A model generated the notes under the pieces. It saw only the letters and a program-made list of their open reading frames with translations, was not told where the DNA came from and made no database searches. The position numbers were made by a program, and so were the translations under genes. Of a stretch of DNA of 64,000 nucleotides, positions 14,345-40,695 are shown piece by piece (within the stretch, counting starts at the first letter, position 1; each line of letters begins with the position of its first letter). Source of the DNA: Pseudonocardia sp. CNS-004 (GTDB lineage Bacteria > Actinomycetota > Actinomycetes > Mycobacteriales > Pseudonocardiaceae); NCBI GenBank assembly GCA_001942185.1, contig MKJV01000068.1, forward strand, positions 310,001 to 374,000. Direction: 5' to 3'.

Positions 14345-15777
14345 TCAGGGCAGGTCGGGCCAGTGGGCGGCCCAGGGGGCGGCGGCCTCGAAAGCGGCCG
14401 AGGCGCGCAGGACGTCGGCGTCGGCCAGGTGGCGGCCGACGATCTGCAGGCCGACCGGAAGGCCGTCGTCCGTGAAGCCGGCAGGCACGCTGGCGGCGGG
14501 CTGGCCGGTCAGGTTGATCGGGAAGCAGAAGCCCAGCCAGGCCTCGACGGCACCATCTGCTCGTCGACGATCTCCGGGCCCTGGGTGTAGAGGGGGAACG
14601 GCGGAACGGCGAGGGTGGGGGTGATCAACAGGTCGTGGTCGGCCATGAGCCGCCACATCTTGTTGTTCACCGCCTTGCGCACCATCCTGGCGCTGGTCAG
14701 ATCCTCCGCGGTCCAGGGCTTGCTGAGGATCTCGACCACGTTCGGCGACATGTCCGCGCCGTACTCGCCGATCAGCCTCCGCATGCCCGCCAGGTCGGTG
14801 TCGCCCATCACCACCGTCCAGAACGCGTGGAACGGGTCGTCCCAGCCGGGGTGGGTCACTTCGACCGTGCAGCCCAGGTCCCTCTCGAACACCGCCGCTG
14901 CCCGTTCGGTGATCTCACGGACCGCGGGATCGACGGTCATGTAGCCCCAGTCCGGCGAGAACGCCACCCGCATGCCGCTGATCCCGCCCTCGAGCGCGGT
15001 CGTCCAGTCGACGTCGCCGGCCGGCAGCGAGAGCCGGTCGCGGGGATCCGGGCCTGCCAGCACCGACATGAGCAGGGCCGCGTCGGCGACCGTGCGGGTG
15101 AGGGGGCCGATGTGCCCGAGGCTCTCCCAGCTCGACGCGCCCGGGTAGCGCTCATCGCGGGCACCGGGGTACATCGGCACCCGACCCATGGACGGCTTGA
15201 ACCCGTAGATGCCGCAGTGCGCGGACGGGATGCGCACCGAGCCGCCGCCGTCGGTGCCCAGCGCGACCGGGCCGATGCCTGCGGCCACTGCGGCCGCCGA
15301 GCCCGCGCTGGACCCGCCCGGGGTCATCGCGGTGTTCCACGGGTTACGGGCAGCGGGCGAGACCGGGTTGTGCCCGGCGCCGCTGTAGCCGAACTCCGGC
15401 ACGGTGGTCTTGCCCAGGACCACCGCGTCGGCCGCCGTGATCCGTTCGACCACCACGTCGTCCTCGTCCGGGACGAAGTCGCGGTAGATCGGCGAGCCCA
15501 TCGCCGTCCGGACGCCCTTGACGGAGATCAGGTCCTTGACCGCGATCGGCACGCCGGCCAGCGGTCCGACCGGTTCACCGCGTGCGATCCGTTCGGTGAC
15601 GTCGGCGGCGGTGGAGCGGGCCCGCTCGCGGGTGGGCTCACAGAAGGCGTGCAGCACGGGATCGAGCCGGTCCATCCGGTCCAACACCGCGTCGGTCACC
15701 TCGGCTGGTGAGAGTTCCTTCGCACCGATCCGGGCGACCAGCTCGGTCGCCGGCATCACGCAGATCTCGTCGGTCAT
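14345..15777 (-). CDS. Amidase signature-family amidohydrolase (frame break)
   Basis: 477 aa after restoring one base. The amidase-signature triad is visible: Lys in PIAVKDLISVKG, and the Ser-cisSer pair in TPGGSSAGSAAAVAAG followed by ALGTDGGGSVRIPSAHCGIY. The last ~68 residues (VEAWLGFCFPINLTGQPAAS onward) lie in another frame, with the break at about 14556 where GTGCCGTC should be GTGGCCGTC. The ATG at 15777 follows GGGAGGAAAT. It hydrolyses amide bonds; substrate range is unknown. It is divergent from dps, and each carries its own copy of the 21-bp element upstream. Confidence 0.87.
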
Positions 15778-15921: not shown

Positions 15922-15943
15922 CGATCGCATCAGGGTTCTCCCC
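15922..15943 (-). repeat. 21-bp element, copy A (upstream of amidase)
   Basis: Read on the minus strand it is GGGGAGAACCCTGATGCGAT plus C. It points toward the amidase start 145 bp away and forms an inverted pair with copy B. Relatives lie at 16059, 25781 and 37468. It may be a shared promoter/operator or a dispersed repeat. Confidence 0.7.
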
Positions 15944-16055
15944 GGCCTCCACCCGGTGGATGTGCTGCCCGAATCGACGCGACCGGCGTCGTCCGAGCGG
16001 GCGCGATGCCCCGCAGCGTGAACGGCCACAAGCCACCTTGTGCATGGCCGACTTC

Positions 16056-16151
16056 ACTGGGGAGAACCCGGATGCGATCGGCGCCTGCACTCGCAGACAG
16101 TCGATGTGTTCGAACGCAGCGGCAACCAGGCCGACCACTGCGCGCGCTGAG
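16056..16151 (+). repeat. ~95-bp repeat with 21-bp element, copy B (upstream of dps)
   Basis: Starts with GGGGAGAACCCGGATGCGAT and ends with a 27-bp block (16115-16141) identical to 25839-25865 upstream of the CysRS gene. The whole segment aligns without gaps to that copy over most of its length. The 21-bp core sits about 84 bp before the dps start and points toward it. The rest of 15778-16163 holds no gene. Confidence 0.75.
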
Positions 16152-16163
16152 GAGGACCAACGC

Positions 16164-16661
16164 ATGGATTCCCTGACGGCGGCCGTCTACCTTCCCCCAC
16201 TGGACAACCCGCACGAGCGAGCCGCCATCGGTCGCGAACTGGCCGCAGTACTGCACGACCTGGTGGCGCTCTCACTGACCGGCAAACAACTGCACTGGAT
16301 GGCCGTCGGCCCGCTGTCACACTCACTGCACCTACAACTCGACGAGCTCGTCGACAGCTGGCGCTCCATGGCCGACACCGTCGCCGAACGCGCCATCACG
16401 ATCGGCCACACCGTCGACGGTCAACCAGCCGCCGTCGCCGCCGGCACGGAGCTGACCCCGGTCACTCCGACCGAGATCCAGGACAACGTGCTCATCCACG
16501 AAGTCACCCACCGCGTAGCAGCGGTCGCCGAACGGGTCCGATCCCGGCTCCACCGCGTCGGCGAAGTCGACCTCGTGTCCCAGGACGTACTCATCGGAGT
16601 GACCCGCGAGCTCGAAAAGCAACAATGGCAGCTGCGGGTGCAATCAGGAACACACCGATGA
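16164..16661 (+). CDS. dps: Dps-family DNA-protection ferritin
   Basis: 165 aa. The N-terminal helix carries the ferroxidase-type LSLTGKQLHWMAVGPLSHSL, followed by LQLDELVDSWRSMADTVAER with the conserved Asp/Glu metal ligands. Length and helical pattern match Dps (non-specific DNA binding, iron storage and peroxide detoxification in a dodecamer). ATG 16164 follows GGAGGA. Its stop overlaps the start of the sulfite-oxidase-like gene as ATGA, so it heads a four-gene operon. Likely induced by oxidative or starvation stress, perhaps through the 21-bp element upstream. Confidence 0.87.
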   Translation: MDSLTAAVYLPPLDNPHERAAIGRELAAVLHDLVALSLTGKQLHWMAVGPLSHSLHLQLDELVDSWRSMADTVAERAITIGHTVDGQPAAVAAGTELTPVTPTEIQDNVLIHEVTHRVAAVAERVRSRLHRVGEVDLVSQDVLIGVTRELEKQQWQLRVQSGTHR

Positions 16662-17263
16662 CACCCACATCGCGCGGTTTCCTGGGCAGCCGACGCACCG
16701 ACGCCGACCCATCCCGGATACCGCCGGGTCAGTATGTGACAACCGCATTCCCGGTGCTGTCCGCGGGCCCGACACCGCACACGCCGTTGGACCGGTGGAC
16801 GTTCAGCATCCGCGGCGCGGTCGCCGAGCCGATTTCGTGGACGTGGGACGAGTTCCGTGCGTTGCCGAGCGAGAACATCACGACCGACATCCACTGCGTC
16901 ACCAAATGGTCCAAGCTCGACACCGAGTGGATGGGGGTCTCGCTGGACACCCTGCTCGCCGGCGTGCAGAGCAGCGCTGGTCATGCGCTGGTCTTCTGCG
17001 ACGGCGGGTACACCACGAACCTACCGATCGCGGACCTGACCGGTGGCAAGGCGTGGATCACCTACGGCTTCGGCGGCGCGTCGCTCGATTCGCAGCACGG
17101 CGGCCCGGCACGGCTGCTGGTCCCACACCTGTACTTCTGGAAGAGCGCCAAGTGGGTACGGGGCCTCGATCTGCGCGACGAGGACCAGCCCGGTTTCTGG
17201 GAACGCTACGGCTACCACAACTACGGAGACCCATGGCAAGAGCAGCGCTACTCCGGAGACTGA
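16658..17263 (+). CDS. Sulfite-oxidase-like molybdopterin oxidoreductase (YuiH type)
   Basis: 201 aa. The oxidoreductase molybdopterin-binding domain shows the SUOX-fold core: WTFSIRGAVAEPISWTWDEF, the molybdenum-ligating Cys in IHCVTKWSKLDTEW, then MGVSLDTLL and HGGPARLLVPHLYFWKSAKW. There is no haem domain, so electrons must come from or go to another protein, most simply the flavin reductase overlapping its 3' end. The ATG at 16658 overlaps the dps stop; an earlier ATG at 16625 lies inside dps. Probably cytosolic, since no Tat signal is seen. Substrate unknown (sulfite, S-oxide or other oxo-transfer). Confidence 0.85.
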   Translation: MTPTSRGFLGSRRTDADPSRIPPGQYVTTAFPVLSAGPTPHTPLDRWTFSIRGAVAEPISWTWDEFRALPSENITTDIHCVTKWSKLDTEWMGVSLDTLLAGVQSSAGHALVFCDGGYTTNLPIADLTGGKAWITYGFGGASLDSQHGGPARLLVPHLYFWKSAKWVRGLDLRDEDQPGFWERYGYHNYGDPWQEQRYSGD

Positions 17264-17988
17264 CCTGGCAGACCGGCACCATCGTCAAGATCGTCACCGA
17301 GACCGCACGCACCCGAACCATCGCACTGCAGGTGCCCGAGTGGCGCGGGCATCGAGGCGGTCAGCACGTCGACATCCGGCTCACCGCCGATGACGGCTAC
17401 CAGGCGCAGCGCAGCTACTCGATCGCCTCCGCACCGTCCGACGCTCAGGTCGAGATCACCGTCGAGCGCCTGCACGACGGGGAGGTCTCGCCCTACCTCG
17501 TCGACCAGCTGCGCCTGGGTGACGAGTTGGAGCTGCGCGGCCCGGTGGGCGGGTACTTCGTGTGGCAGGACTCCCCGGGCGGGCCGCTGCTGCTCATCGC
17601 CGGCGGGTCCGGGATCGTCCCGTTCCGCTCGATGCTGCGCCACCACCGCTCGATCCACAGCACGGTGCCGGTCCAGTTGCTGTACTCCGTCCGCACCCCG
17701 GAGGACCTCTTCTACCGGGAGGAACTGATGCGGATGGCAACCTCCGACGAGATCGACATCAGCCTCACATTCACCCGTACCCAGCCGCCCGGCTGGAACG
17801 GCTACGACCGCCGCATCGACCGCGAGATGCTGGTGGAATCCGGCTGGTCCCCTGGCGCCGACCCCCTCGTCTACGTGTGCGGGCCGACGGCGTTCGTCGA
17901 GACCGCCGCCGAGCTGCTCGTCGGTATCGGGCACGACCCGAGACGCATCCGAACCGAACGCTTCGGCGGGATCGGAGAGAACCCATGA
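17233..17988 (+). CDS. FNR-type flavin reductase (FAD/NAD domains)
   Basis: 251 aa. The FAD domain has GGQHVDIRLTADDGYQAQRS then YSIASAP (RxYS motif); the NAD domain has LLLIAGGSGIVPFRSML and VYVCGPTAFVETAA. There is no 2Fe-2S domain, unlike the MOSC fusion. It starts 31 bp inside the sulfite-oxidase-like gene (GGAGACCC before the ATG) and ends overlapping the DUF6510 gene, so it is the probable electron partner of the molybdoenzyme. It transfers NAD(P)H electrons via FAD. Confidence 0.88.
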   Translation: MARAALLRRLTWQTGTIVKIVTETARTRTIALQVPEWRGHRGGQHVDIRLTADDGYQAQRSYSIASAPSDAQVEITVERLHDGEVSPYLVDQLRLGDELELRGPVGGYFVWQDSPGGPLLLIAGGSGIVPFRSMLRHHRSIHSTVPVQLLYSVRTPEDLFYREELMRMATSDEIDISLTFTRTQPPGWNGYDRRIDREMLVESGWSPGADPLVYVCGPTAFVETAAELLVGIGHDPRRIRTERFGGIGENP

Positions 17989-18236
17989 CCGCACTGGACG
18001 GCAATGCGATCGCAGGAATGTTGCAGACCGCGTTCGGACAGGACATGACAGCCGCGCCGGGCACGTGCGCCGGCTGCGGCGCAGCGAGCAGGCTCGGGCA
18101 GGCCAGGGTGTACCGGGGCGCCGGAACGGTACTGCGCTGCCCGAACTGCGAGGGTGTACTGATGGTGATCATCGAGAACGGCGGCGTCATGGGCATCGAT
18201 GCCCAAGGCCTCACCGATCTCCACGTCCCCTGGTGA
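17985..18236 (+). CDS. DUF6510 zinc-ribbon-like protein
   Basis: 83 aa. Two CxxC pairs, GTCAGCGAASR and LRCPNCEGVL, are spaced like a zinc ribbon, followed by the hydrophobic strand LMVIIENGGVMGIDAQGL. It resembles DUF6510 proteins, which accompany FNR-type reductases in actinobacteria. The ATG overlaps the reductase stop (ATGA), so it is co-made with the molybdoenzyme and reductase. It may assist cofactor or complex assembly; this is inference only. Confidence 0.75.
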   Translation: MTALDGNAIAGMLQTAFGQDMTAAPGTCAGCGAASRLGQARVYRGAGTVLRCPNCEGVLMVIIENGGVMGIDAQGLTDLHVPW

Positions 18237-18365: not shown

Positions 18366-21201
18366 GTGCTTCCCGTGCCTACTTCGTCGAGCGCCCTGCA
18401 CCACAGGCCGGACGGCAGCGGCCCGTTGCGGCTGTACGGTCGGGCCGCCGAGTGTGCCCGTATGGAGCAGCTCCTGCAGCAGCAGGCAGCCACCTTGCGG
18501 GTGATCGGTGACGGCGGCAGCGGGAAGAGCGCCATGCTCGAATGTGTCGCCCGGCGCGCGACCGGCCACCGGCTTCTACGCGTCCGCGGCGTCGCCCCGA
18601 ACACGAGCTGCCCTACGCCGGGCTGCACCTGTTGTGCGCGCCGCTGCTGGACGAGATGCATGCGCTGCCGTCTGCCCAACGCCATGCCCTCACCACCGCG
18701 ATCGGGCTGACCGCCGGGCCACCGCCGGACCGGCTGCTCGTCAGCCTCGCCACGTTGAACCTGCTCACCAGCCTCGCCGTCACGCAGCCCGTGTGCTGCC
18801 TCGTCGATGACGCGCACTTGCTCGACCACGCCTCCAGACTGGTACTGGCGTTCGTGGCGCGACGCGCCGAGCGTGGGCTGTTGGTCCTGCTCGCCGAACG
18901 CGAACAGCAGCACAGGACCGAACTCGACGGTGTGCCCGAGATGCGCCTGGAGCCCCTGCCGTACGACGACGCGCGACTCCTGTTGGCCGCGACAACCCCC
19001 GGGAAGATCGACGCCGCCGTCATCGAGCGGGTCCTGATGGAGGCTCGCGGCAACCCCCGGGTGCTCGTAGAGGCCTTCGACGGCATCAACGCGGTCGAGC
19101 TCGCCGGCGGGTACGCGATTCCCGCACCGCGCGCAGGACGCCGCCTGCTCGACCACGACTGTGTCCAGCGCGGGCAGCATCTGCGAGCCGGAGCGCGGCG
19201 CCTGCTGCTCACGGCGGCCGCAGACCCCACCGGCGACCCGCCGGTGGCCTGGCGGGCCGCATCCGCGCTCGGTATCGGTAGCGACGCTGCTGAGGCTCTG
19301 GAGGCACAGCGGCTGCTGGAGTTCGGTCCGCGGATCGTGTTCGTATGCCCACGGCTGCGTGCGGCGGTCTACGCAACCGCCCCACCCGCCGAGCTCCGTG
19401 AGGTCCACCGCGCGCTGGGCGACGCCATCGACGCCGACGTGGACCCCGATCGTCGGGCGTGGCACCTCGCGCTGGCCACCAGTGGCCTCGACGACACCGT
19501 CGCCGCCGACCTCGAGCGGCACGCGCCTACCGCACGGGCCCGCGGCGGTGTCGCGGCCGGGGCGGCGTTCCTGGAAAAGGCCGCGCTGCTCACCGCCGAC
19601 CCGGTGGCGAGGGCACAGAGGGCGTTGGCTGCCGCGGAGGCACAACGTCTTTCGGGCGCCCCGGAGACCGCTCAGCGACTGCTCGCGATGGCGGAGAGCG
19701 CACCTCCCGACGAGGCACGACAAGCCCAGGTGGCGCTGCAGCGCGCCCGGATCGAGTTCACCAAACACCGCAGCCAGGCTTCACCCCGGCATCTGCTCGA
19801 CGCGGCACGGCGCATCGAGCCGCACTCATCCGCGTTGGCTCGGGACGCATATCTGGAGGCGCTGGTGGCGGCAGTGTTCTCCGGCCACCTCGCCACCACC
19901 CCGACCGTCGTCGAAATCGCTGCTGCCGCAAGGGCCGCCGCCGTGGCCGCGGGGGCGGCCCATCCGGTAGCGATGCTCCTCGACGGACTGGCGACACGGG
20001 CGCTCGACGGCCCGGTCGCGGCCGTCGGCCCCCTCACCGAGGTGCTCCGCGCGTTCCGAACCGCCGATCTCGGCCCGGAGGCGAGCCGCTGGCTGTGGCT
20101 GGCCGGCTGCGTCGCCGCCGACGTCTGGGACGTGCAGGCATGGACCGCGTTGTCGTCGCGCCACACCATCCACACCAGCGCCGAGGACTCGACGACGCCC
20201 GCGCAATCCGCGGCCCACCGCGCGCTCGCCGACATGCACGTCGGTCGGTTCGACGCCGCTCGCGCCGGACTCGCACGTGCCGACGCACACGTTTCAGCCA
20301 CCGGCGCCACACCGCTCCGGCACCCATCGCTGCTGCTCGCCGCATGGCAGGGCCGGCACGATGTCCTTCACGACCTGCTACGGGAAGCACGCCACGATGC
20401 CCGGGACCGCGGCGACGGCATCACCCTGACAGCCGCGAGCCTTGCCGAGGCCGTCATGCACAACAGCGTGGGCCACTACGAACAGGCCCTCGCGGCGGCG
20501 CACGACGCCTGCCGGCCCGAGCAGCTCGCCTTGTGCGGGTGGGCGCTGCCCGAACTCGTCGAAGCGGCCGTGCGCACCGGCCAACACGACACCGCAGTTC
20601 GTGCTGTCGCCCGACTCAGCGAGCGCACCGATGCTGCAGGCACCGACTGGGCACTGGGCATCCAGGCAGCGGCACGAGCGCTGCTCGCCGACGAGCAGGC
20701 CGCAGAGCCGCTCTACCGAGAAGCGATCGACCGACTGGCCCGAACCGACATCCGGATCCACCTCGGCCGCGCCCAGCTGCTCTACGGTGAGTGGCTGCGC
20801 CGCCGGAAGCGACGCATGGACGCACGAGCACCGCTGCGAGCGGCCTGGGAACTGTTCGCGACCATCGGTGCGGAAGCGTTCGCCGACCGCGCTCACCGCG
20901 AGCTGCTCGCCACCGGTGAGACGGCGCGCAAGCGCAGCGTCGAGGCCGGCCGTCAGCTGACTCCTCAGGAATCCCAGATCGCACACCTGGCCCTCAACGG
21001 GCTCTCCAACCCCGAGATCGCGCCCGCCTGTTCGTCAGCCCTCGCACCGTCGAGTACCACCTGCACAAGGTCTTCACGAAACTCGCCATCTCCTCGCGCA
21101 CGGAGCTGCACCTGGTTCTGGCCGCTGCCCCGGACGCGCGCCACGTCGTTCCGCTGTGGCGCGTCCCCGTGCCCGGCACCGCGGACGCGTTCGCGCACTG
21201 A
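18366..21201 (+). CDS. LAL-type LuxR regulator 1 (two frame breaks)
   Basis: About 945 aa after restoring two bases. The N-terminal ATPase has Walker A in RVIGDGGSGKSAML and a Walker B-like CCLVDDAHLLDHAS; a long helical TPR-like middle follows; the C-terminus is a LuxR HTH: LTPQESQIAHLALNGLSNPE, then in the shifted frame ARLFVSPRTVEYHLHKVFTK. Breaks lie at about 18596 (a C run before GAACACGAG) and 21022 (GCGCCCGCC, expected GCGGCCCGCC). It is a large ATP-dependent activator, more divergent than the other two here. The GTG 18366 start is uncertain. Confidence 0.82.
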
Positions 21202-21414
21202 CGGTCGGGCCTCCCGTACTCCACGGGTCGGCTCGCCGCATCGAAGAAGCCCAGGCCTGCGGGTGCGACCGACTGGGCAGGTCAGCTAGGGATTCGCCGG
21301 AACCGACCGACGCGGGATCGGTGGAGTGTCACTGCGATGACGGCAGACCTGCGAGGGAGATCAGAACTGACCCTCGCGGGGCGCTGCCGACCCAACCGCC
21401 AGAAGGAGTTGGAG

Positions 21415-22891: not shown

Positions 22892-25636
22892 TCAGCGGCG
22901 CAACTGCCGACGGGAGCTGATCCCGAGCTTGGCGAAGATCCTGCTCAGGTGCCATTCGACCGTTCGGGGGCTGATGAACAACCGGGTGGCGACCTCCGCG
23001 TTCGACAAGCCGTCGCGCACCAGCCGGACGATCTGAGCCTCCTGCGTCGTGAGTTCACCGGAGCCCGTGTCGGCGGGCTTGCGGACCGCTTCTCCGGTGG
23101 CACCGAGCTCGCGGGCCGCCAATCCCGCGAATGCGTCCATACCCATCGTGATCAGCACCTCGTGCGCATCGCGGAGCTGCTCGCGTGCGTCGTTGCGCCG
23201 GTTCTGGCGCCGCAGCCACTCCCCGTAGTGAAGGCGAACGCGGGCGAGCTGACCGCGGATCCGGGTACGGGAGAGGTGGTCGATCGCCTCCAGGTACGCC
23301 CCCTCAGCGGGCCGGCCATCGCTCAGCAGCGCCCGGCAGGAGGCCTCCAGACCCAGCGCCCAGTGCGTTCCGCTGGCCTGTGTCAGCTCCTCGAGACGTC
23401 GCAGTGCGTCGGCCCCCGCGTCGGGTCGATCGATCCGGGAGGCCGCGGTGACGAGCTCGGCGAGTGGTGCCCACGTCAGGATGCCCCTTTCCTGGTGCGG
23501 CGCGGAGGCCTGCTCCGCCGCGGCGAACGCCTCCTCGAAGCGGCCCAGCCCGTTGAACAGGACCGCGCACGCCCATCCGGCGGTGATGGCCCCGAGCCCC
23601 TCTCCCCGCCGTTCGGCGTCGGTGGCGGTCTCCGCGACCAGTTCGCGGGCAACCGATTCCCGACCCTGCCACGCGGCGAGCAACTGACCGGTGTAGGCCG
23701 GCACCGTGATCCCGGTGCTGTCCTCGATGCCGTGCATCTCCTCGACGAGCGCAGCAGCCGCGACCAGGTCACCGGCGAAGATCTCGACGACGATGCGCGT
23801 GGTCAGCGCGAGGGGAAGGGTGGCCAGCGCGCCGGCGTCGCGGGCGAGGCCGACGAACTTGCTCGTCACAGCGTTGGCGGTGTCATCGTCCCAGAGGTCG
23901 ACAGCGGCTGCGCTCGCGAACCACAGCCATCGCAACCCCTCCTCGTCGGAGAGGTCGGGGCCGCGGAACGCACGCAGTGCGTGCTTCACCATGGGCGCGC
24001 CGGTGGGGTAGCCGGCGGTGTAGCGCACCGCGAGGGCGTCGAGCAGCAGATCTGCGGCACGTGGTGGTGATCCGGGCGAGGGCGCCGCCGCGGCAGCTCG
24101 GGCCACCTCCCGAATCGTCACCCCACCGGCAGGATCGGCCGCGTACCAGGCTGCGCGCAACGCGTCCAGGTACGTCTCGCGAGCCAGCTGGGCGTCGAGC
24201 GGCTCCAACTGCGCCGCGGCCTTCAGCAGCAGCTGTGGCGTGTCCCGGCCCCGGTCGACGGCGAACGCGATGCGGGCGCGCAGCAGCTCCGCCCGGGCAC
24301 GCTGCAGGTCGGCGACCGGGCTGGCGTCGACCAGCGACAACAGGCGCAGCGAGGCCTCGGGCATGCCCGCCAGGAATCGGGCCTGGGCAGCGGCGAGGGC
24401 CCTTTCCCCGCGCCGTACCAGGTCTGGGGTCAGGGCAGTGGCGCGCTCCAGGAAGGACGCGGCGGCCACGAGCCCGCCGCGCGCCTGTGCACGTCCCGCT
24501 GAGCGCTCCAGCTCAGCAGCGACATCCTCGTCCGGCTCGGCAGTCGCCTGAGCGAGGTGCCAGGCGCGCCGATCCGGGTCGGACACCGGGTCGACCACCT
24601 CGCCCAGAGCCCAATGTGCACGTCGCCGCTGCTCCGGGGATGCGGCGTTGTAGATCACCGAACGCAGCAGCGGGTGCCGGAACCGCACCCGGGAGGCGAA
24701 CTCGACGAGCCCGGACAACTCACCCCGCGACGAAACCGTGGCCATGTTGTCGATGCCGAGCCGGTCGACCGCGCGCCACAGGAGCACCGGGTCACCCACC
24801 GGTTCGGCGGCCGCCACCAGCAACACCTTCCGGGTCACCGGCGACAACGCCTCGATCTGCCGGTGGAAGCTCTCCTCGATCCTCCGCGGCACGCTCACGG
24901 ACTCGAACAGCCCGAACCCACCTGCGAGCTCCGCAGGCGTGAAACCTCGCGGCAGTTCCAGCAGCGCCAGCGGGTTGCCCTGACTCTCGGCCGTCACGCG
25001 CTCGAGCACCCGGTCGTCGATCGGTCCGGGATGCGCCAAGGACAACAGCATGCGGGAGTCCTCGTCCGTCAGCCCCGTGACGCGGAGTTCGGAAAGACCC
25101 ACCAGCTCGGGCGATTCTGCGTGCTCCTCGGACTCGCGCACCGCGAAGACGATGGCCACCGACTCGGCCTTCAGCCGTCGGGCGACGAACCCGAGCGCCT
25201 GGGCCGACGCACGATCCAGCCACTGCGCGTCGTCGACCACGCACAGCAAGGGCTGTTCCCGCGCCACTTCGGAGAACAGACCCAGCACCGCCAAACCGAT
25301 CACGAACCGATCCGGCGGACTACCGACGGCAAGACCGAAGGCAGTGGCCAAGGCGTCGCGCTGCGGCGCAGGCAGGCCCCCCAACCGGTCGAGCATCGGG
25401 GCACAGATCTGGTGCAGAGCGGCGAACACGAGCTCCTTCTCTGCTTCGACACCCGTGGCTCGCGCGGTGCGGAAGCCCGCTGCCTGCCCGAACAGGTGTT
25501 CCAGCAACGCGGTCTTGCCGATGCCCGCGTCGCCGCGCAGGACCATTGCCCGGCTCTCCCCGATGCGGACGTCCGCGAGCAGGCGGTCGAGCACGTCGCG
25601 CTCGCTACCCCTGTCGAGCAGCTTGGCTGTCAGCAT
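22892..25636 (-). CDS. LAL-type LuxR regulator 2, intact
   Basis: 914 aa and unbroken. Walker A in VLRGDAGIGKTALLEHL, Walker B in LLCVVDDAQWLDRASAQ, a TPR-like helical middle of about 500 residues, and a C-terminal LuxR HTH: LTTQEAQIVRLVRDGLSNAE, VATRLFISPRTVEWHLSRIF. It is strongly similar to regulator 3 over its length (shared PPDRF.IGL, SEVAREQPL, VDDAQWLD, GISSRRQLRR end). The ATG 25636 is chosen because GRGSERD begins soon after; the longer frame upstream runs through a dispersed repeat. Ligand and targets are unknown. Confidence 0.88.
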   Translation of the reverse strand: MLTAKLLDRGSERDVLDRLLADVRIGESRAMVLRGDAGIGKTALLEHLFGQAAGFRTARATGVEAEKELVFAALHQICAPMLDRLGGLPAPQRDALATAFGLAVGSPPDRFVIGLAVLGLFSEVAREQPLLCVVDDAQWLDRASAQALGFVARRLKAESVAIVFAVRESEEHAESPELVGLSELRVTGLTDEDSRMLLSLAHPGPIDDRVLERVTAESQGNPLALLELPRGFTPAELAGGFGLFESVSVPRRIEESFHRQIEALSPVTRKVLLVAAAEPVGDPVLLWRAVDRLGIDNMATVSSRGELSGLVEFASRVRFRHPLLRSVIYNAASPEQRRRAHWALGEVVDPVSDPDRRAWHLAQATAEPDEDVAAELERSAGRAQARGGLVAAASFLERATALTPDLVRRGERALAAAQARFLAGMPEASLRLLSLVDASPVADLQRARAELLRARIAFAVDRGRDTPQLLLKAAAQLEPLDAQLARETYLDALRAAWYAADPAGGVTIREVARAAAAAPSPGSPPRAADLLLDALAVRYTAGYPTGAPMVKHALRAFRGPDLSDEEGLRWLWFASAAAVDLWDDDTANAVTSKFVGLARDAGALATLPLALTTRIVVEIFAGDLVAAAALVEEMHGIEDSTGITVPAYTGQLLAAWQGRESVARELVAETATDAERRGEGLGAITAGWACAVLFNGLGRFEEAFAAAEQASAPHQERGILTWAPLAELVTAASRIDRPDAGADALRRLEELTQASGTHWALGLEASCRALLSDGRPAEGAYLEAIDHLSRTRIRGQLARVRLHYGEWLRRQNRRNDAREQLRDAHEVLITMGMDAFAGLAARELGATGEAVRKPADTGSGELTTQEAQIVRLVRDGLSNAEVATRLFISPRTVEWHLSRIFAKLGISSRRQLRR

Positions 25637-25777
25637 GTCGAGCTCATCCTTGGTACGACGGAGGAACGAAGCCTCCCTCCCTGGACCTCCGGCGCGTGCA
25701 CGTGACGCGCCAGGGCCTCCAGGAGATCCGGGTGATCGGAGCATACGAGGGGCGGGCCGAACACCAGGGGCGAAGCC

Positions 25778-25873
25778 ACCGGGGAACACCCGGATGCGAT
25801 CAACGCCGGAGCCGGCAGACAGTGGACGTGTGCTCGCCCGCAGCGGCAACCAGGCCGACCACTGCACGCTGAC
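25778..25873 (+). repeat. ~95-bp repeat with 21-bp element, copy C (upstream of cysS)
   Basis: Begins GGGGAACACCCGGATGCGAT and contains the 27-bp block (25839-25865) identical to that upstream of dps. The core points toward the CysRS start 123 bp away and lies 145 bp behind the divergent LAL regulator start. No gene is present in 25637-25923. Confidence 0.75.
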
Positions 25874-25923: not shown

Positions 25924-27387
25924 ATGGTGTTCCGGCTCTACAACAGCCTCACACGCCGCAAGGAAATCTTCGCGCCGATGCGTCCGGGCGTTGTCCGGAT
26001 GTTCGTGTGCGGCCCCACCGTGTACGACCTGAGCCACGTCGGCCACGCCAAGACGTACACGAACTTCGACTTCGTCGCCCGCTACCTGCGGTTCTGCGGC
26101 TATGACGTGACCTACGCGCAGAACATCACAGACGTCGACGACAAGGTGATCGGCCGTGCGCGGGAGCGGGGTGTCGCCCCGAACGACATCGCCGAGCAGT
26201 TCGAGGCGGAGTACCGCCGTGACATGGCAGCCCTGCACAACACGGGCGTCGACGTCTACGCGCGCGCAACCGGCTACGTCGACCAGGTCGTCCGACAGGT
26301 CCGGCGGCTGATCGACCGTGGCCACGCGTACCGGCTCGACGACGGCTGGTACTTCGACCTGTCCACGTTCCCCGGCTACGGCAAACTCTCCGGGCGTTGC
26401 GACGTGCTGCGGGGAGACTCACCGAGCCGGATCGATGCGGACCACGCGAAGCGGCAGCACGGTGACTTCGTGCTGTGGAAGGCCAGAAAGCCCGACGAGC
26501 CGTTCTGGCCCTCCGAGCTGGGCCCCGGGCGGCCGGGATGGCACATCGAGGACACCGCGATCACCGAAGCCCTGTTCGGGCCGCAGTACGACCTGCACGG
26601 CGGCGCCGTCGACCTGACGTTCCCCCACCACGAGGCAGAGATCGCGCAGATGGAGTCCGCCTCCGGCCTCGCGCCGCTCGCGCGCCATTGGATGCACGTC
26701 GGTCTGCTCCGAATCGACGGAACGAAGATGGCCAAGAGCGCGGGAAACTCCGTGACGATCAAGGACGCGCTCACCCGGTCGGATTTCCGAACGCTGAGGT
26801 TCGCCTTCCTGAGTCAGCACTACCGGTCGTCCATCGACCTGACCGAAGCCCGCCTCGAGGAGGCAGGCAGGGCACGGCGCCGGGTGGAGAACTTCGCGCG
26901 TTCGGTCGATCGCCGCGGCACCGAGACCGACGCTTCGAGGAAGCCGGCGGAACAGGCTCGGTCTCGCATCTTCCGGAAGTTGGACGACGACCTGGACACG
27001 CCGGGTGCGCTGGCGGTGCTGTTCGACTTCATCCGGGAGCAGAACAGAACGGAAGCGCGCGCCGGGGCGACGGCGTGGCAGTTGCTGATGGACCTGGACT
27101 CCCTCTTCGACTCGTTCGAACTCGACGCGCCCGCAGGGCACGACGCCGAGTTCGTCGACGCCGCTGTCGTCGACGCTGCCGTCGCGCGGCGGCGTCGAAT
27201 GCGTGCACAAGGCCGGTTCGACGAAGCCGATGCGATCCGCACCGAGCTGTTGGAGCTCGGTGTCCTCGTCGAGGACCGGGCGGACGAAACTCGTTGGCGG
27301 CGGATCGCGGTGGCCCCTCCCTATCGCCACGGGGCGGTGCCAAGCGGAAACTCGTCCGGGCAGGACCGGTCCGCATCCGGTGGGTGA
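25924..27387 (+). CDS. cysS: Cysteinyl-tRNA synthetase, unusual zinc site
   Basis: Class I CysRS of about 487 aa from ATG 25924. The HIGH-type motif is in YDLSHVGHAKTY, the KMSKS-type in KMAKSAGNS, the tRNA-binding C-terminus ends DEADAIRTELLELGVLVEDR. The first zinc Cys is present in MFVCGPTVYD and HHEAEIAQ is intact, but the usual GWHIEC reads GWHIEDTAIT, so the second zinc Cys is Asp. That wording resembles archaeal CysRS. It attaches cysteine to tRNA-Cys; given an expected housekeeping copy elsewhere, this may be accessory. It heads an operon with a hydrolase-OsmC fusion. Confidence 0.88.
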   Translation: MVFRLYNSLTRRKEIFAPMRPGVVRMFVCGPTVYDLSHVGHAKTYTNFDFVARYLRFCGYDVTYAQNITDVDDKVIGRARERGVAPNDIAEQFEAEYRRDMAALHNTGVDVYARATGYVDQVVRQVRRLIDRGHAYRLDDGWYFDLSTFPGYGKLSGRCDVLRGDSPSRIDADHAKRQHGDFVLWKARKPDEPFWPSELGPGRPGWHIEDTAITEALFGPQYDLHGGAVDLTFPHHEAEIAQMESASGLAPLARHWMHVGLLRIDGTKMAKSAGNSVTIKDALTRSDFRTLRFAFLSQHYRSSIDLTEARLEEAGRARRRVENFARSVDRRGTETDASRKPAEQARSRIFRKLDDDLDTPGALAVLFDFIREQNRTEARAGATAWQLLMDLDSLFDSFELDAPAGHDAEFVDAAVVDAAVARRRRMRAQGRFDEADAIRTELLELGVLVEDRADETRWRRIAVAPPYRHGAVPSGNSSGQDRSASGG

Positions 27388-27394
27388 CACCGAG

Positions 27395-27793
27395 ATGATG
27401 TCGCGCATGACGGTGCCGCCGGTCGCGTGGCCCCACGGCCCCGGGAAGCCAGTGCCTCTCACGGGTGCGACCATCGCGTCGCTTCGGCAACTGCGCTCTC
27501 CTGCCTCCGGCGACCGGGCGCTGGGGGTTCTGGTCCTGGCCACCGGGCTTCTCGAGGCCGTCGCGGTGCGCGACGGGCGGTTCACGCCCGTCCTGCGATG
27601 CGCAGACCTACCGCGGGCAATAACCCTGGAGTTCACCGAGCAGATGCAGGAGCAGGCGTTGGACAATCTGTGCCGATGGGTTGCGGTCGAGGGCCGCCTC
27701 TGTTCCGTCGAGTCCGACGGCTACCGGTTGGAGGTGCACCGCCTGCGAGCGGCGCACCGGATCGATGGAGGGGACCAGGACCCGTGGCAATGA
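27395..27793 (+). CDS. Hypothetical protein between cysS and OsmC fusion
   Basis: 132 aa, not recognised. Starts MMSRMTVPPVAWPHGPGKP (ATG 27395 or 27398), then a beta-rich LGVLVLATGLLEAVAVRDGR and a helix EFTEQMQEQALDNLCRWVAV, ending with a charged tail. One Cys pair is widely spaced and not a clear metal site. It starts 8 bp after cysS and overlaps the next gene as ATGA, so the three are an operon. Confidence 0.65.
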   Translation: MMSRMTVPPVAWPHGPGKPVPLTGATIASLRQLRSPASGDRALGVLVLATGLLEAVAVRDGRFTPVLRCADLPRAITLEFTEQMQEQALDNLCRWVAVEGRLCSVESDGYRLEVHRLRAAHRIDGGDQDPWQ

Positions 27794-29015
27794 GCAGGAA
27801 GCTCGAGTTTCCCGGCTCTCAGGGGCCCCGCTGGCGGCCCGGCTGGACCTGCCGGAGACCGAGCCCCACGCCTACGCGCTGTTCGCGCACTGCTTCACCT
27901 GCGGCAAGGACGTGGTCGCGGCGGCCCGGATCGCGCGGGCGCTGACCGAGCGCGGGATCGCCGTACTGCGCTTCGACTTCACCGGGCTCGGAGGTTCGGG
28001 GGGCGAGTTCGGCAACACGCACTTCAGCTCGAACATCGCCGACCTCGGGCGCGCCGCCGATCACCTCCGGGAGTACTTCGCCGCGCCGTCGATCCTGATC
28101 GGGCACTCGCTCGGCGGTGCCGCCGTGCTGGCAGCGGCTCACCTGATCCCGGAGGTCCGAGCGGTGGCCACCATCGGCGCACCCGCCGACCCGCAGCACG
28201 TCGTCGGCCTGTTCGCCGAGCACCGGGCCAGGATCGACCAGGACGGCGATGCCGAGGTCCTACTCGCCGGTCGCACCTTCCGCGTCCGCCGCGAGCTGCT
28301 CGACGACCTGGCGGCCCAGCCGCAGGCCGCGCGGATCGCGAGCCTCGGGGCCGCGCTGCTGGTGCTGCACTCGCCCACCGACGAGCTGGTCGGCGTGGAC
28401 AACGCCCGGCGCATCTTCGACACCGCCCGGCACCCGAAGTCCTTCATCGCCCTCGACGGCGCCGACCACCTGCTCACCGCACCGGACGACGCCGCGTTCG
28501 TCGCCGCGGTGCTCGCGCCGTGGGCCGCGCGCTACCTGCCCAAGTCTGCCGAACCCACGCCGGACGCGGGCCGTGAGGGCCACGTCGTGGTGTTCGGGAA
28601 GCGGCCGAGCACGCTTGCTCAACACATCACCGTCGGGCCCCACCACCTGGTGGCCGACGAGCCGGTGCCCGTCGGGGACGACACCGGCCCCACTCCCTAC
28701 GACCTGCTTCTCGCCGCGCTCGGCGCGTGCACGGCGATGACACTCCGGCTGTACGCGCAGCGCAAGCACTGGCCGCTGGACGACGTGACGGTGTCGCTGC
28801 GACACTCCCGCATCCACGCCGAGGACTGCGCGAACTGCGAGACGCAGGCCGGCATGCTCGACCGGATCGAGCGCGTCATCCAACTGGACGGCGACCTCGA
28901 CGACGACCAGCGGAAACGCCTGCTGGAAATCGCCGACCGGTGCCCGGTGCACCGCACGTTGCAGTCGGAGATCGTGATCGACACGACCGACGGAACGGCG
29001 ATCGCGCGGTCCTGA
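27790..29015 (+). CDS. Alpha/beta hydrolase-OsmC fusion (frame break)
   Basis: 408 aa after restoring one base. N-terminal serine hydrolase: MSRKLEFPGSQG, then in the next frame HCFTCGKDVVAAARIARAL, nucleophile GHSLGG and a late DGADHLL His. C-terminal OsmC/Ohr domain: LLLAALGACTAMTLRLYAQR with one redox Cys and CPVHRTL with the second. This known fusion combines a hydrolase with a thiol peroxidase-like domain. The break is at about 27825, where CAGGGGCCCC should have one more G. The ATG overlaps the previous stop. With cysS it suggests a thiol/oxidative-stress link. Confidence 0.87.
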
Positions 29016-35554: not shown

Positions 35555-35992
35555 TCTGGAGTCACGGGCGCCCCGGGGTCTGACGGGTACGGCAACCCGG
35601 GGTGGTTCGATCGAACACCGCCGGGTGTGCAGCGTCCGATGACCAGCGTCACTGTGCCCGCCCGGTTCCACCCTCGCGCGCCGGGCGCCCTGACGCATCC
35701 GTGGACGACCCTGGGCAACCACCGGATCCGCAGCCGAGCCACCTCGACGCGGCCGCTGTCGCGGTCCGCGGCTTCCTCGGACGGTCCCGAGTCCGGGCAC
35801 GGCTGCGGAAGTCGACCTGCAGGACGGCGGGGCGGTGACGGCCGGGCGGCCGAGGCCCCCTACGTCGAGCGATCAGCCGGTCTGGGCGATCAGGGCACCT
35901 GACCCGCGTGCAGTTGGTGTTCGTCGCGCCCCGGGCCCCGCCACGTCGTCAGGACATCGGAGTCCGGCGAGTTGCTTCTCCAGTCCCGTTCC
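35555..35992. other. Non-coding stretch, no gene seen
   Basis: This 438-bp stretch separates the dehalogenase start from the end of the RclA-like gene. Frames on both strands lack family matches and ribosome sites. It should hold the dehalogenase operon promoter; no palindrome stood out. Confidence 0.5.
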
Positions 35993-37401
35993 TCATCCGT
36001 CTCCCGGCTCGTCACTGTGCACGACCGCGCCGATGACGTCGTTGAACGCTTCCGTCGAGGCGGGTGCGTGTAGATGCTGTCGCGCAGCTCGCCGGCCTTG
36101 ATCCCGCGGCGCATCGCCAGTGCCACGGTATTGATCAGCTCTTGCGCGTCGACGCTGAGCAGCGTGGCACCGAGGATCTCGTCGGTCTCGACGTCGATCA
36201 CGAACTTCATCACTCCGCGTGTTTCCCCGACGACGTAGGAGCGCGGCATCGCCACGATCTCGGCCACCGGTTGGCTGGCCACCTTCACGCGGAAGCCGGC
36301 GTCGCGGGCCTCCCTCTCGGTGAGGCCCACGTTCGCCAGCGGCGGCGTCATGAACAGCGTTCGGGGAACGGCCACCCGATCGGCCGTCGTGCGCTTGCCC
36401 TCCCCGAGGAGCTGGTCCAGGACGATGCGGCTGTCGTCCAGCGAGACGTAGGTGAACTGCGGCCCACCGTTGACGTCTCCGAGCGCGAAGATGTGCGGCT
36501 GGCTGGTCCGCAGGTACTCGTCCACCTCCACGGCTCCCCTGCTGGTGGTGCGCACTCCAGCCGCCGCCAGCCCGAGCCCCTCGGTCGCTGGTCTGCGCCC
36601 GGCGGCGGCCAGCACCGCATCCACCGCGAGAGTGTGCTCCCGGCCGTCGTTCATGTACTGGACCGTCGCCTCGCCGGCACCGTCCAGGATCTTCGTGACG
36701 TTGGCGCCGGTGACGATGTCGATGCCCTGATCGACGAGGATGCCCTCGGCCACCGCCGCGACGTCGTCGTCCTCGCGATCCAGGATCCTGGCCGTGGACT
36801 CGAACAGGGTGACCCGCGAGCCGAACTGGCGGTAGATGGAGGCGAACTCGATCCCGAGGTAGCCACCGCCCACGATGGCCAGGCGCTCCGGCAGCACGGT
36901 CCGGTGGATCAGATCGGTGCTGGTCACGAGGTACTCGCTGGTCCGCAGGCCCGGAATGTCCGGGATCACCGGTGTCGACCCGGTGTTGATCAGGATGTGC
37001 TCGGCCTCGACGGTGATCGGATCGTCGCCGGTGTCGACGCTGACGGTGTGCGGGCCGACGAACTCGGCGTGCCCGGTGAGAACGGTGGCGCCCACGTTCT
37101 CGGTCATCGCGTCGAAGTTGCCCTTGCGGAACAGCGACGTGATGGCGTGCACCTCACCGACCGCACGCTCGTACCATTCCTGCGGCGGATCGGACGGTCG
37201 ACGCGCGTGGGCGTGGTGCACCAGCGCCTTCGTCGGCACACAGCCGATGTTGGGGCAGGTGCCTCCGTACATCTGGTCCGACTGCTCGACCACTACGACG
37301 CGTTTGCCCAGCCGACCCAGAGCTGCGGCGACGGCCTTTCCGCCCTTGCCGAAACCGACGACCAGTAGGTCGGCCCGAAGTGAGCGCACAGCACTTTGCA
37401 T
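35993..37401 (-). CDS. RclA-like pyridine nucleotide-disulfide oxidoreductase (frame break)
   Basis: 469 aa after restoring one base. FAD site LLVVGFGKGGKAVAAALGRL, redox Cys pair in YGGTCPNIGCVPTKALVH, NAD site LAIVGGGYLGIEFASIY, second FAD motif IFALGDVNGG, and the C-terminal YTHPASTEAFND with the catalytic His/Glu. The break at about 36061 (CACCCGCCTCG, expected CACCCGGCCTCG) affects only the last ~25 residues. The GFGKGGK/MYGGTC wording is that of E. coli RclA (YkgC), which protects against reactive chlorine. A 21-bp element lies 67 bp upstream, as for dps. Confidence 0.85.
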
Positions 37402-37467: not shown

Positions 37468-37490
37468 CCCATCGCATCCGGGTCCTCCCC
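37468..37490 (-). repeat. 21-bp element, copy D (upstream of RclA-like gene)
   Basis: On the minus strand it reads GGGGAGGACCCGGATGCGAT, pointing at the RclA-like start 66 bp away. Same orientation and similar spacing as copy B before dps. Confidence 0.7.
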
Positions 37491-37989: not shown

Positions 37990-40695
37990 TCAGCGGCGCA
38001 GTTGGCGGCGCGAGCTGATGCCGAGCTTGTTGAAGATCCTGCCCATGTGCCACTCGACGGTGCGGGCGCTGATGAAGAGCCGACCCGCGATCTCGGAGTT
38101 GGAGAGGCCCTCGCGGACGAGGCGCACGATCTGCGCCTCCTGCGGGGTCAGCTCCGTGCCGGTCTCGGAGGTGCGCTTGCGTGCGGCTTCGCCAGTGGCC
38201 ATCAGCTCACGCCCGGCGCGCCCCGCCCACGCCTCCATCCCCATGGTTGTGAACATCTCGTGGGCGGGGCGCAGCTGCTCGCGGGCGTCCAGCCGGCGAC
38301 GCTCGCGGCGCAGCCACTCACCGTAGACGAGATGGGCGCGGGCGAGCTCGCCGCGGAAGCGCGTGCGAGCGAGCCGCTCGATCGCCTCCCGGTATGCGTC
38401 CTCGGCGACCTGGCCTTGGCTCAGCTGGGCGCGCGTGCGGGCCTCGACGCCGAGTCCCCAGTCAGTGCGGGTGGCGCTCGTGGTCTCGGTGAGCTGCGCC
38501 AAGGCGTCGGCAGCGGTATCGAGCTGTCCGGAGCGGGTGGCGGCTTCGACGAGCTCGACCAGCACACCCCACGGCTCCACCCCCATCACGGGCGGGTGCT
38601 GGCGGGCGCTTCGGGCCGCAGCCAGCGCGTCGTCGTAGTGGCCGAGGCTGTTGGAGAGCATCGCCGCGGCCCACCCGGTGAGGATGAGCCCGAAACCCTC
38701 ACCCCGGCTGACCACTTCCTTTGACGTGGCCTCGATCAGCTCCGTCGCCTCCGACGGACGGCCTCGCCAGGCCGCGAGCACGACGGCGCCGTACGGCGGG
38801 AGCGGGTTCCCGTCGCTTCGGTGGCCGCGTCCAGCTGGGCGAGAAGCGCGGTGGCCTTGTCGAGCTCGCCGACGAGCGTGTGCGCACCGATGCGCACCGT
38901 CAGAGCGAGAGGAAGGGTGTCCAGCGCACCGGCCTCCCTGGCGAGCTGCACGTGCTCGGCGGTCTCGAGGGTCTCCTCGTCCCACAGGTTCCCCGCGGTG
39001 ATGCGGCGAGCCACAGCCAGCGCAGCGTGTCGGGCGGGAGGTGCGGCTCGCGGAAGGCGTGCAGGGCACGCCGGACCAGCGGTACCGCGGCGTTGTAACC
39101 GTCGGTGAACCGCATTGCGAGCGCGTCGAGCAGCAGGTCCGCCGCTCTCGGGGGCTGCGGCGGAGCCGGCGCGGCGCGGGCGGCCTCCGCGCCTCGCGCA
39201 CCCCGCCGCCGGTGGCCAGCGAGCCGGCGAACATCGCCGCCAGCAGCGCGTCCAGGTACGTCTCGCGCGCGAGTCGCACGTCGAGCGGCTCGAGCTGCTT
39301 GGCGGCGGTGAGCAGCAGCGGCGGTGCCTCCCTACCGCGGTTCGTGCTCAGCGCGATCTTGGCGCGCAGCAGGTTGGTTCGGGCCTGCTGGAGCTTGTCG
39401 AGCGGCCCTGCCTCGAGGAGCGGGAGCAGGCCGAGCGCGACCTCGGGCGCGCCGGAATGGTGGGTGGCCTCCGCGGCGGCGAGCATGCGCTCGACCCTGC
39501 GCGCCGGCTCGGGGGTGAGCTGGGCCGCGCGCTCGAGCAGTGCGGCAGCGGCGGCGAGGCCGCCGCGCGCCTGGGCACGTCCCGCCGAGCGTTCCAGGTC
39601 CGCGGCGACCCCTTCGTCCGGTCCGGCCGCCGCCTGCGCGGCGTGCCATGCGCGCTGATCAGGGTTGGCCTCGGGATCGGTGGCGTCCGCCAGCGCGCGG
39701 TGCGCGATCCGTCGCTCATCGGTGGAGGCGGCGCGGTAGATCGCCGAACGCACGAGCGGATGGCGGAACCGGACGCTGGTGCCGATCTCGAGCAGGTCGG
39801 CTGCCGCCGCGGGCGCCGCGGCGTCGAAGTCGATCTCGAGTCCCTCGGCCGCTCGCCACACCAGCGCCGGATCGCCCATCGGCTCCGTCGCCGCGACGAG
39901 CAGAAGGCGCCGCGTGTCGGCCGGCAGGGGCGCCAGCTTCCGGCGGAAGCTGTCCTCGATCTGCTGCGGGAGAGCCGGACCGGCCATCCGACCGAAACCG
40001 GCCGCCAGCTCCGCCGGTCCCAGGTCGCGTGGCAGTTCCAGCAACGCGAGCGGGTTTCCCCTGGTTTCCGCGATGATGCGATCGCGCACCCGCCCATCGA
40101 TGGGGCCGCGCACCACCGACTCCAAGAGAGCGCGCGCATCCTCGTCCGGCAGGCCGGCGAGCTTCATCTCCGGCAGACCCGTCAGTTCCACGGGTTCGCC
40201 GGGCGTGCGTGCGGCGAAGACCATTGCCACCGATTCTGCGGCGAGGCGGCGCGCGACGAACGCCAGTACTTGCGCCGAGACCTGGTCGAGCCATTGGGCA
40301 TCATCGACCAGGCAGACGAGCGGCTGTTCTCTGGCCACCTCCGACAACAGGCTCAGCACCCCGAGCCCGATGAGGAAGCGGTCCGGCGCGGCTCCGCCGC
40401 TCAGGCCGAACACCGTTCTCAACGCATCCTGCTGTGGACCGGGCACACGTTCCATCCGGTCGAGCATCGGTGCACAGAGCTGGTGCAGCCCGGCGAAGGC
40501 CAGCTCCATCTCCGACTGGATGCCCGCAGCGCGCACCACCAGACAGTCCGATGCCCGCTCAGCGGTGTACCCCAGCAATGCGGTCTTGCCCACGCCCGGC
40601 TCGCCGAGCAGCACCAGCGCGCCGCTACGACCAACCCGGACGGTCTCGAGCAGCTGAACGAGCCGGTCGCACTCGCTGCGCCGACCTAGTAACAC
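37990..40695 (-). CDS. LAL-type LuxR regulator 3 (three mutually cancelling frame breaks)
   Basis: About 902 aa after restoring three bases. Walker A in VLLGEPGVGKTALLGY, Walker B in LVCLVDDAQWLDQVSAQ, helical middle, C-terminal HTH LTPQEAQIVRLVREGLSNSE and AGRLFISARTVEWHMGRIF. An uninterrupted frame spans it, but between about 39187 and 38810 it encodes Arg/Pro-rich nonsense; the homologous text there lies in two other frames (ALHAFREPHLPPDTLRWLW, then LWDEETLETAEHVQLAREAG). Breaks at about 39187, 39008 and 38810 add to three bases. GTG 40695 is the preferred start. Paralogue of regulator 2. Confidence 0.82.
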   Translation of the reverse strand: MLLGRRSECDRLVQLLETVRVGRSGALVLLGEPGVGKTALLGYTAERASDCLVVRAAGIQSEMELAFAGLHQLCAPMLDRMERVPGPQQDALRTVFGLSGGAAPDRFLIGLGVLSLLSEVAREQPLVCLVDDAQWLDQVSAQVLAFVARRLAAESVAMVFAARTPGEPVELTGLPEMKLAGLPDEDARALLESVVRGPIDGRVRDRIIAETRGNPLALLELPRDLGPAELAAGFGRMAGPALPQQIEDSFRRKLAPLPADTRRLLLVAATEPMGDPALVWRAAEGLEIDFDAAAPAAAADLLEIGTSVRFRHPLVRSAIYRAASTDERRIAHRALADATDPEANPDQRAWHAAQAAAGPDEGVAADLERSAGRAQARGGLAAAAALLERAAQLTPEPARRVERMLAAAEATHHSGAPEVALGLLPLLEAGPLDKLQQARTNLLRAKIALSTNRGREAPPLLLTAAKQLEPLDVRLARETYLDALLAAMFAGSLATGGGVREARRPPAPRRLRRSPRERRTCCSTRSQCGSPTVTTPRYRWSGVPCTPSASRTSRPTRCAGCGSPHHRGEPVGRGDPRDRRARAARQGGRCAGHPSSRSDGAHRCAHARRRARQGHRASRPAGRGHRSDGNPLPPYGAVVLAAWRGRPSEATELIEATSKEVVSRGEGFGLILTGWAAAMLSNSLGHYDDALAAARSARQHPPVMGVEPWGVLVELVEAATRSGQLDTAADALAQLTETTSATRTDWGLGVEARTRAQLSQGQVAEDAYREAIERLARTRFRGELARAHLVYGEWLRRERRRLDAREQLRPAHEMFTTMGMEAWAGRAGRELMATGEAARKRTSETGTELTPQEAQIVRLVREGLSNSEIAGRLFISARTVEWHMGRIFNKLGISSRRQLRR

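Follow-up and report, generated by a model that had tools for sequence, protein, structure and literature searches.

An archaeal-type accessory cysteinyl-tRNA synthetase in Pseudonocardia sp. CNS-004, lying behind a sequence element shared with stress genes: a putative backup enzyme

Auxiliary aminoacyl-tRNA synthetases (aaRSs) that serve in stress or resistance include ThrRS-T2 (low zinc), GlyRS2 (high temperature) and SerRS2 (albomycin), and for cysteine the part of the same source drawn on here names CysRS* and mycothiol ligase (PMC9437257). The gene discussed here encodes a 487-residue cysteinyl-tRNA synthetase (CysRS) of archaeal type, an open frame at positions 25924–27387 (+) of a 64,000-nucleotide stretch of Pseudonocardia sp. 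CNS-004 DNA (contig MKJV01000068.1, positions 310,001 to 374,000), which we call the window. Like the auxiliary aaRSs described in that part of the source, it is a diverged, full-length second copy beside a housekeeping enzyme; it differs from CysRS* and mycothiol ligase as named there in being full-length, archaeal in type and placed behind an element common to oxidative-stress genes (PMC9437257). The occurrence of a second, archaeal-type CysRS behind such an element suggests a reserve enzyme called on under stress. No archaeal-type accessory CysRS in Actinobacteria was found in the titles and abstract openings of the open-licence papers listed by the searches made. When thiols are oxidised, translation is naturally vulnerable at its supply of cysteine, and the zinc of the standard CysRS is held by two cysteines; the presence of Cys-Cys and Cys-Asp enzymes in one cell makes any protective value of the archaeal ligand set directly testable.

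Against the CysRS model TIGR00435 the window protein scores 429.5 bits (cut-off 340), covering profile positions 2–465 of 466, and it carries the catalytic domain PF01406, a DALR domain (DALR_2, PF09190; 29.7 bits, cut-off 22) and the anticodon-binding domain PF23493 (CysS_C; 31.2 bits, cut-off 23). Its HIGH-type motif reads HVGH (residues 38–41) and its KMSKS-type motif KMAKS (residues 268–272), and in the alignment the Thr, Trp, His and Asp positions inspected in the cysteine pocket are conserved, as are a C-terminal Asp and Trp (W458). The possibility that the gene is an MshC or a degenerate paralog was ruled out by score, domains and tree. MshC, the mycothiol cysteine ligase, resembles it in being an actinobacterial relative of CysRS with a part in thiol defence; it differs in forming a separate clade of the tree, in having its own gene on contig C71 of this genome and in its model, TIGR03447, against which the window protein reaches 277.9 bits and misses the cut-off of 485.1.

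Alignment to E. coli CysRS (1li5) and to 85 other rows gives the window enzyme the zinc set C29, D210, H235 and E239, with D210 at the second zinc cysteine of standard enzymes, as an earlier note on this DNA had read from the motif GWHIEDTAIT. The position, as seen in the alignment, corresponds to C209 of the E. coli enzyme. The note's association of the motif with archaea holds up equally well, as the second ligand is Asp in all 45 rows from archaea, the candidate phyla radiation (CPR) and other sources and in all 22 rows of an actinobacterial clade, as opposed to Cys in all ten standard actinobacterial rows, and among the aligned rows the zinc-site residue agrees with placement in the tree. 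The window enzyme shares with the archaeal and CPR enzymes the motif GWHIEDTAI, the zinc set C-D-H-E and 41–50% identity over most of its length, but differs from them in its setting, in an actinobacterium beside a standard CysRS. The C-terminal Trp, a feature of standard enzymes, is present in 21 of the 22 clade rows compared with 15 of the 45 archaeal, CPR and other rows.

Phylogeny, which the earlier note had proposed as a check, bears out the archaeal-type affinity. In the 86-row tree the 67 Asp-type rows are split from the standard rows (67-row group, 100/100; ten-row standard group, 100/99), and the 22 actinobacterial sequences group together in a single clade (100/95), within which the position of the window CysRS, beside Promicromonosporaceae, is weakly supported (80/56). 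The outgroup was narrow (same-family standard CysRS, MshC and short MshC-like rows), and the tree shows kinship with the archaeal and CPR type but does not tell when, or in which direction, a transfer took place. The archaeal type was found in one of 62 genomes of the genus (this one; best match in the other 61 at most 44% identical), in nine of 390 Pseudonocardiaceae genomes, this genome included, and in one of 394 genomes of an even sample of the class, again this one, with the four best candidates per genome scored in the family and class searches. A wider scan with six short peptide patterns over one genome per species (84,980 species) gave 287 confirmed relatives; the best 80 of these comprise 16 actinobacterial loci at 53–68% identity (L016–L031), one Solirubrobacteraceae locus (L078) and otherwise loci from archaea, CPR and unplaced bacteria, including many metagenome-assembled genomes (MAGs). 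The clade is rare and patchy and has most likely spread horizontally.

In this genome the enzyme is accessory. The check for a second, standard cysS that the earlier note had called for found one on contig C96 (67490–68860), an open frame scoring 415 bits against TIGR00435 and bearing the motif GWHLECSAM. The two enzymes have the same catalytic motifs and both exceed the TIGR00435 cut-off, but they are 37.5% identical and the standard enzyme has Cys, not Asp, as its second zinc ligand. The source assembly is a 9.2 Mb draft in 156 contigs, 83% complete. It also holds a standard-like CysRS with broken frames on contig C123 (L004/L006/L143), identical to the C96 enzyme at 230 of 352 aligned positions, and an MshC-like gene with a broken frame on contig C72 (L005/L007).

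The window gene stands behind a 21-bp element, GGGGAACACCCGGATGCGATC, at 25781–25801 (+), 122 nt upstream of its ATG, and the element that the earlier note had placed there proves real. At up to three mismatches the element GGGGANNACCCGGATGCGATC has five matches in the window compared with 0.10 expected; at up to one mismatch there are four copies genome-wide, all within the window, and none for a reversed-pattern control. By the gene calls all four copies are intergenic, and the fifth window match falls inside a regulator gene. The genes behind the four are those for an amidase (14509–15777, −; element at 15923–15943, −, one mismatch), the Dps operon (element at 16059–16079, +, 84 nt upstream of the Dps start), CysRS itself and an RclA-like flavoprotein (element at 37470–37490, −, one mismatch). 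Around the element, a block of about 93 nt upstream of CysRS (25777–25869, +) matches the block at 16055–16145 upstream of the Dps operon with 82% identity (E 1e-18), as though a single control region had been duplicated. The Dps operon (16164–18236, +) encodes Dps/ferritin, a molybdenum (Mo)-oxidoreductase (PF00174), an FAD/NAD reductase and a DUF6510 protein, and would belong to the same putative regulon. Elsewhere in the genome, on contig C145 (L142 8600–8850), a CysRS relic consisting of a 37-residue N-terminus and about 28 residues of C-terminus, with most of the middle gone, lies directly behind a Mo-oxidoreductase/FAD reductase/DUF6510 trio paralogous to the last three genes of the Dps operon; the archaeal-type CysRS has therefore stood twice with this redox module in the genome. 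The relic contig is not among the listed matches of the element or of the upstream block. Together, the common element, the block shared with the Dps operon and the relic beside the redox trio support the tie to stress genes that the earlier note had drawn. A possible third copy of the upstream block on contig C105 (79% over 52 nt) was set aside, as it lies antisense inside a called gene, and so were leader-peptide readings of the shared block, whose reading frames differ between its two copies.

The ratio of nonsynonymous to synonymous substitution rates (dN/dS) is 0.09–0.36 over 11 pairs and 0.09–0.30 in the eight close pairs; for the window gene against three relatives it is 0.16–0.36, in pairs where dS is high. 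Judged from these ratios, purifying selection acts on the window CysRS and its clade. These values bear on the reading that the gene is a neutral acquisition, of no particular role and heading for loss. The existence of the C145 relic, the rarity of the gene and the alteration in the window CysRS of 12 positions that at least 20 of the other 21 clade rows conserve would fit such a fate, but the open frame, the intact motifs, the dN/dS against the three relatives and the possession of its own control region make it very unlikely.

The explanation that we judge probable is that of a horizontally acquired, working backup CysRS whose expression is tied to a local oxidative-stress regulon. The enzyme most likely makes Cys-AMP and Cys-tRNA(Cys) like an ordinary CysRS, an activity that we infer because its motifs are intact and its relatives are the sole CysRS of their genomes. 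It would have come under the control element of the local regulon, which would take in Dps, the Mo-oxidoreductase, the RclA-like flavoprotein and a fusion protein with an OsmC domain, would be produced when thiols and metal sites are attacked, and would back up the housekeeping enzyme under stress. The non-tRNA role that the earlier note had offered as an alternative appears less likely, as the enzyme retains its HIGH-type and KMSKS-type motifs and its anticodon-binding domain, and the Asp type is the sole CysRS over the cut-off in all five archaeal, CPR and unplaced genomes checked. A cognate orphan tRNA, in the manner of a CysRS*/SelC* pair, was considered and rejected: the window has no tRNA gene, and the 28 loci scanned have no tRNA-Cys.

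Each of the 22 clade genomes was searched for members of the CysRS family, and the matches found were then inspected for their motifs. Both the Asp-type and the standard CysRS exceed the cut-off in 19 of them (this genome, seven of the eight further Pseudonocardiaceae, and 11 Streptomyces, Kitasatospora and Promicromonosporaceae genomes), and the Asp type alone does so in the remaining three. One of these, the 99% complete Pseudonocardiaceae genome G077 (L026, L132, L140, L148), has an archaeal-type CysRS and MshC only; neither the family search nor a search with a standard CysRS query found a standard cysS there, and the standard enzyme has apparently been displaced by the archaeal type. The proposition that every clade genome keeps a standard copy was dropped on this account. 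The other two are Streptosporangiaceae MAGs (L030, L031), which have no standard cysS over the cut-off and a divergent CysRS-like frame that was matched in pieces. Outside the clade, the Asp type is likewise the sole CysRS over the cut-off in a Solirubrobacteraceae MAG. As the Asp type is the sole CysRS in some cells, an Asp-ligand CysRS can evidently serve alone, in an actinobacterium included, and these relatives argue that the window enzyme is competent. The finding of both types in 19 of the 22 genomes, rather than in all, thus strengthens the case for a competent enzyme and weakens that for a stress role throughout the clade. The earlier note had named a sole cysS, with close relatives using the same gene as their housekeeping copy, as the outcome that would tell against it; the first part does not hold, given the cysS on C96, and the second is seen in G077 and in the two MAGs from another family, where the Asp type is the sole CysRS over the cut-off.

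Several observations weigh against the proposal of a stress-linked backup enzyme. G077 uses the same type as its sole CysRS, so that a stress role is not a clade-wide property. The link to stress is seen in one genome, and the other 21 clade loci have different neighbours, among which the redox genes of the window do not reappear; by blastp clustering within the flanks read, neither the OsmC fusion, nor the small protein between it and CysRS, nor the Mo and FAD genes had a homolog in these loci, and the OsmC partner is, on this comparison, particular to the window locus. Within the genus, the OsmC fusion occurs in seven of the other 61 genomes, none of which has the archaeal-type CysRS. At two mismatches the element has seven matches in its own genome, three more than at one, and the reversed control has one; at up to one mismatch, the other 61 genus genomes hold only a single match, with one mismatch. 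The curated cut-offs of the best NCBIfam models are not reached by the Dps protein (62.2 bits, cut-off 114), which clears the Pfam ferritin cut-off, or by the RclA-like protein (NF040477, 490.8 bits, cut-off 740). The 21-bp element is best described as a putative control element of a local oxidative-stress regulon. Nor does the enzyme itself look plainly hardened against oxidation: it has three core cysteines, as has the housekeeping copy, C29 is still present as one zinc thiolate, and two additional cysteines, C58 and C159, occur in no other clade row.

These cysteines bear on a stronger form of the proposal, according to which the window gene encodes a redox-hardened CysRS, with a carboxylate in place of one of the two oxidisable zinc thiolates and a control region, copied from the Dps operon, that acts as an oxidative-stress switch; it would go on making Cys-tRNA when the housekeeping CysRS loses its zinc. 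A sturdier enzyme is favoured by the loss of one oxidisable zinc ligand and by the company of stress genes. Across the clade the zinc Cys is the sole core cysteine in 16 of 22 rows, with a mean of 1.3 core cysteines compared with 3.1 in the ten standard rows; depletion of cysteine as a sign of oxidation tolerance was dropped for the window gene, since it has three. In E. coli CysRS the C28D and C28/209D changes are reported to lower translation strongly, which shows that there are backgrounds in which changing the ligand has a cost (PMC5660078). We regard the hardened form of the proposal, in which the change from Cys to Asp would make for a sturdier enzyme, as tenable but doubtful.

The same E. 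coli mutants are described as keeping persulfide activity while translation falls, and the enzyme is reported to make persulfides with pyridoxal phosphate at lysines of its KIIK and KMSK motifs (PMC5660078). The window CysRS might on this basis chiefly make cysteine persulfide (CysSSH) as an antioxidant, a role that the OsmC neighbour would suit. However, the window enzyme has KVIG, with Gly for the second lysine of KIIK, and KMAK at the other motif, and thus departs from the lysine pattern of the E. coli enzyme, in which changing any one Lys of either motif is said to affect activity greatly (PMC5660078). The housekeeping copy (KILR) also lacks that lysine, which leaves no role specific to the window enzyme, and the position is R or A in 18 of the 22 clade rows and K in two. 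A persulfide synthase is therefore a highly improbable identity for it.

The patchy occurrence of the clade among actinobacteria, with the standard copy mostly kept, would also be expected of an antibiotic-insensitive CysRS that spreads as a substitute when an inhibitor blocks the housekeeping enzyme, comparable to SerRS2 (albomycin), IleRS2 (mupirocin) and TrpRS1 (indolmycin). The 37.5% identity between the window and C96 enzymes is low, as it is for resistance copies (about 30% in the part of PMC9437257 drawn on). The clade loci provide a further point in its favour, the CysRS gene adjoining a conserved nucleotidyltransferase-like gene that precedes it in seven of the 22 (L019, L021, L023, L024, L025, L027, L135), with an ATP-grasp gene in five of these seven and a 2-oxoglutarate (2OG)-Fe(II) oxygenase gene in four, as called by Pfam for the L023 members and by clustering for the others. 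The nucleotidyltransferase-like label is our presumption from a motif and a weak fold match: the two members scanned gave no Pfam match, and a low-confidence model of the cassette protein cl1 (predicted local distance difference test, pLDDT, 59.5) has a nucleotidyltransferase-like protein and aminoglycoside nucleotidyltransferases as its best PDB matches, at template-modelling (TM) scores of 0.32–0.35 that are a hint only. Against resistance as the role of the window gene, its local element links it to stress genes, no biosynthetic cluster lies beside it among the annotated genes, and no natural CysRS inhibitor was found in the titles and abstract openings of the open-licence papers listed by the searches made; we think this explanation unlikely here.

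The cassettes found in Streptomyces, Kitasatospora and genome G275 also favour the idea of a CysRS devoted to providing Cys-tRNA, or activated cysteine, for the making of a secondary metabolite or thiol. A short MshC-like paralog with no anticodon-domain match lies within about 5 kb of the archaeal-type CysRS in four of the 22 loci (L019, L030, L031, L135), and there is precedent in aaRS paralogs that provide aminoacyl-tRNA for antibiotics such as valanimycin, as stated in the part of PMC2922099 used. Since the window CysRS has no cassette gene near it and retains its anticodon-binding domain, such a function is quite unlikely for this gene. For the wider clade the cassette is possibly biosynthetic, perhaps serving an undescribed cysteine-derived natural product, and may point to a product, either directed at CysRS or derived from cysteine, that is not yet known; its biosynthetic look keeps the resistance and Cys-tRNA-supply readings alive for the family as a whole. 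The members recorded, not all of them in each locus, are the MshC-like paralog, the ATP-grasp protein, the nucleotidyltransferase-like protein, the archaeal-type CysRS and the 2OG-Fe(II) oxygenase. In L030 and L031 the short MshC-like gene stands in tandem with the archaeal-type CysRS, near a TyrRS-like gene, and in four genomes of one genus (L134, L136, L137, L138) the archaeal-type CysRS is a lone gene in conserved surroundings.

Plasmid-borne copies of the window CysRS were also considered and rejected, as there were none at E 1e-100, and at E 1e-30 all 621 records lie below 60% identity, the 20 listed matches being 38.7–40.4% identical. Klebsiella accounts for 503 of the 621 records, and at most of the 20 listed matches a cysteine--tRNA ligase gene is annotated.

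Turning to the remaining genes of the window, a LAL-type LuxR regulator (AAA_16 and GerE domains by Pfam) is encoded at 22892–25636 (−), divergently from CysRS. The RclA-like protein, a pyridine-nucleotide-disulphide oxidoreductase, is encoded at 35890–37389 (−). In all, 22 kb hold three LAL-type regulators, among which the 21-bp elements are interspersed; the one divergent from CysRS and that at 37990–40614 are confirmed by Pfam, and the third, at 18656–21289, has no Pfam match and is assigned by its similarity to the other two. MalT, the type member of the LAL regulators, binds GGGGANGAGG-like boxes.

Downstream of CysRS, the close succession of a small protein and a hydrolase-OsmC fusion described in the earlier note stands, but the expected start of the fusion is out of frame with its body. 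The small protein (27395–27793, +; 132 residues) starts 7 nt past the CysRS stop and has no family match in NCBIfam at E 0.01 or in Pfam at E 0.05; its structure, predicted from the single sequence, has a mean pLDDT of 38. The alpha/beta-hydrolase-OsmC fusion occupies 27765–29015 (+), with matches to PF12146 (60.6 bits) and PF02566 (69.7 bits). Judged by its closest homolog in the genus (L179), the native start is the ATG at 27790, which overlaps the stop of the small protein and is in a different frame from the body of the fusion; the reading frame may be broken close to the N-terminus in this assembly, the gene may start elsewhere, or the sequence may contain an error. The homolog in L179, from another genome of the genus, is unbroken. 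A partial second copy of the small protein (62% over 50 residues) occurs on contig C76 (L186 8576–8716), near a mycothione reductase gene (NF005884, 586.8 bits).

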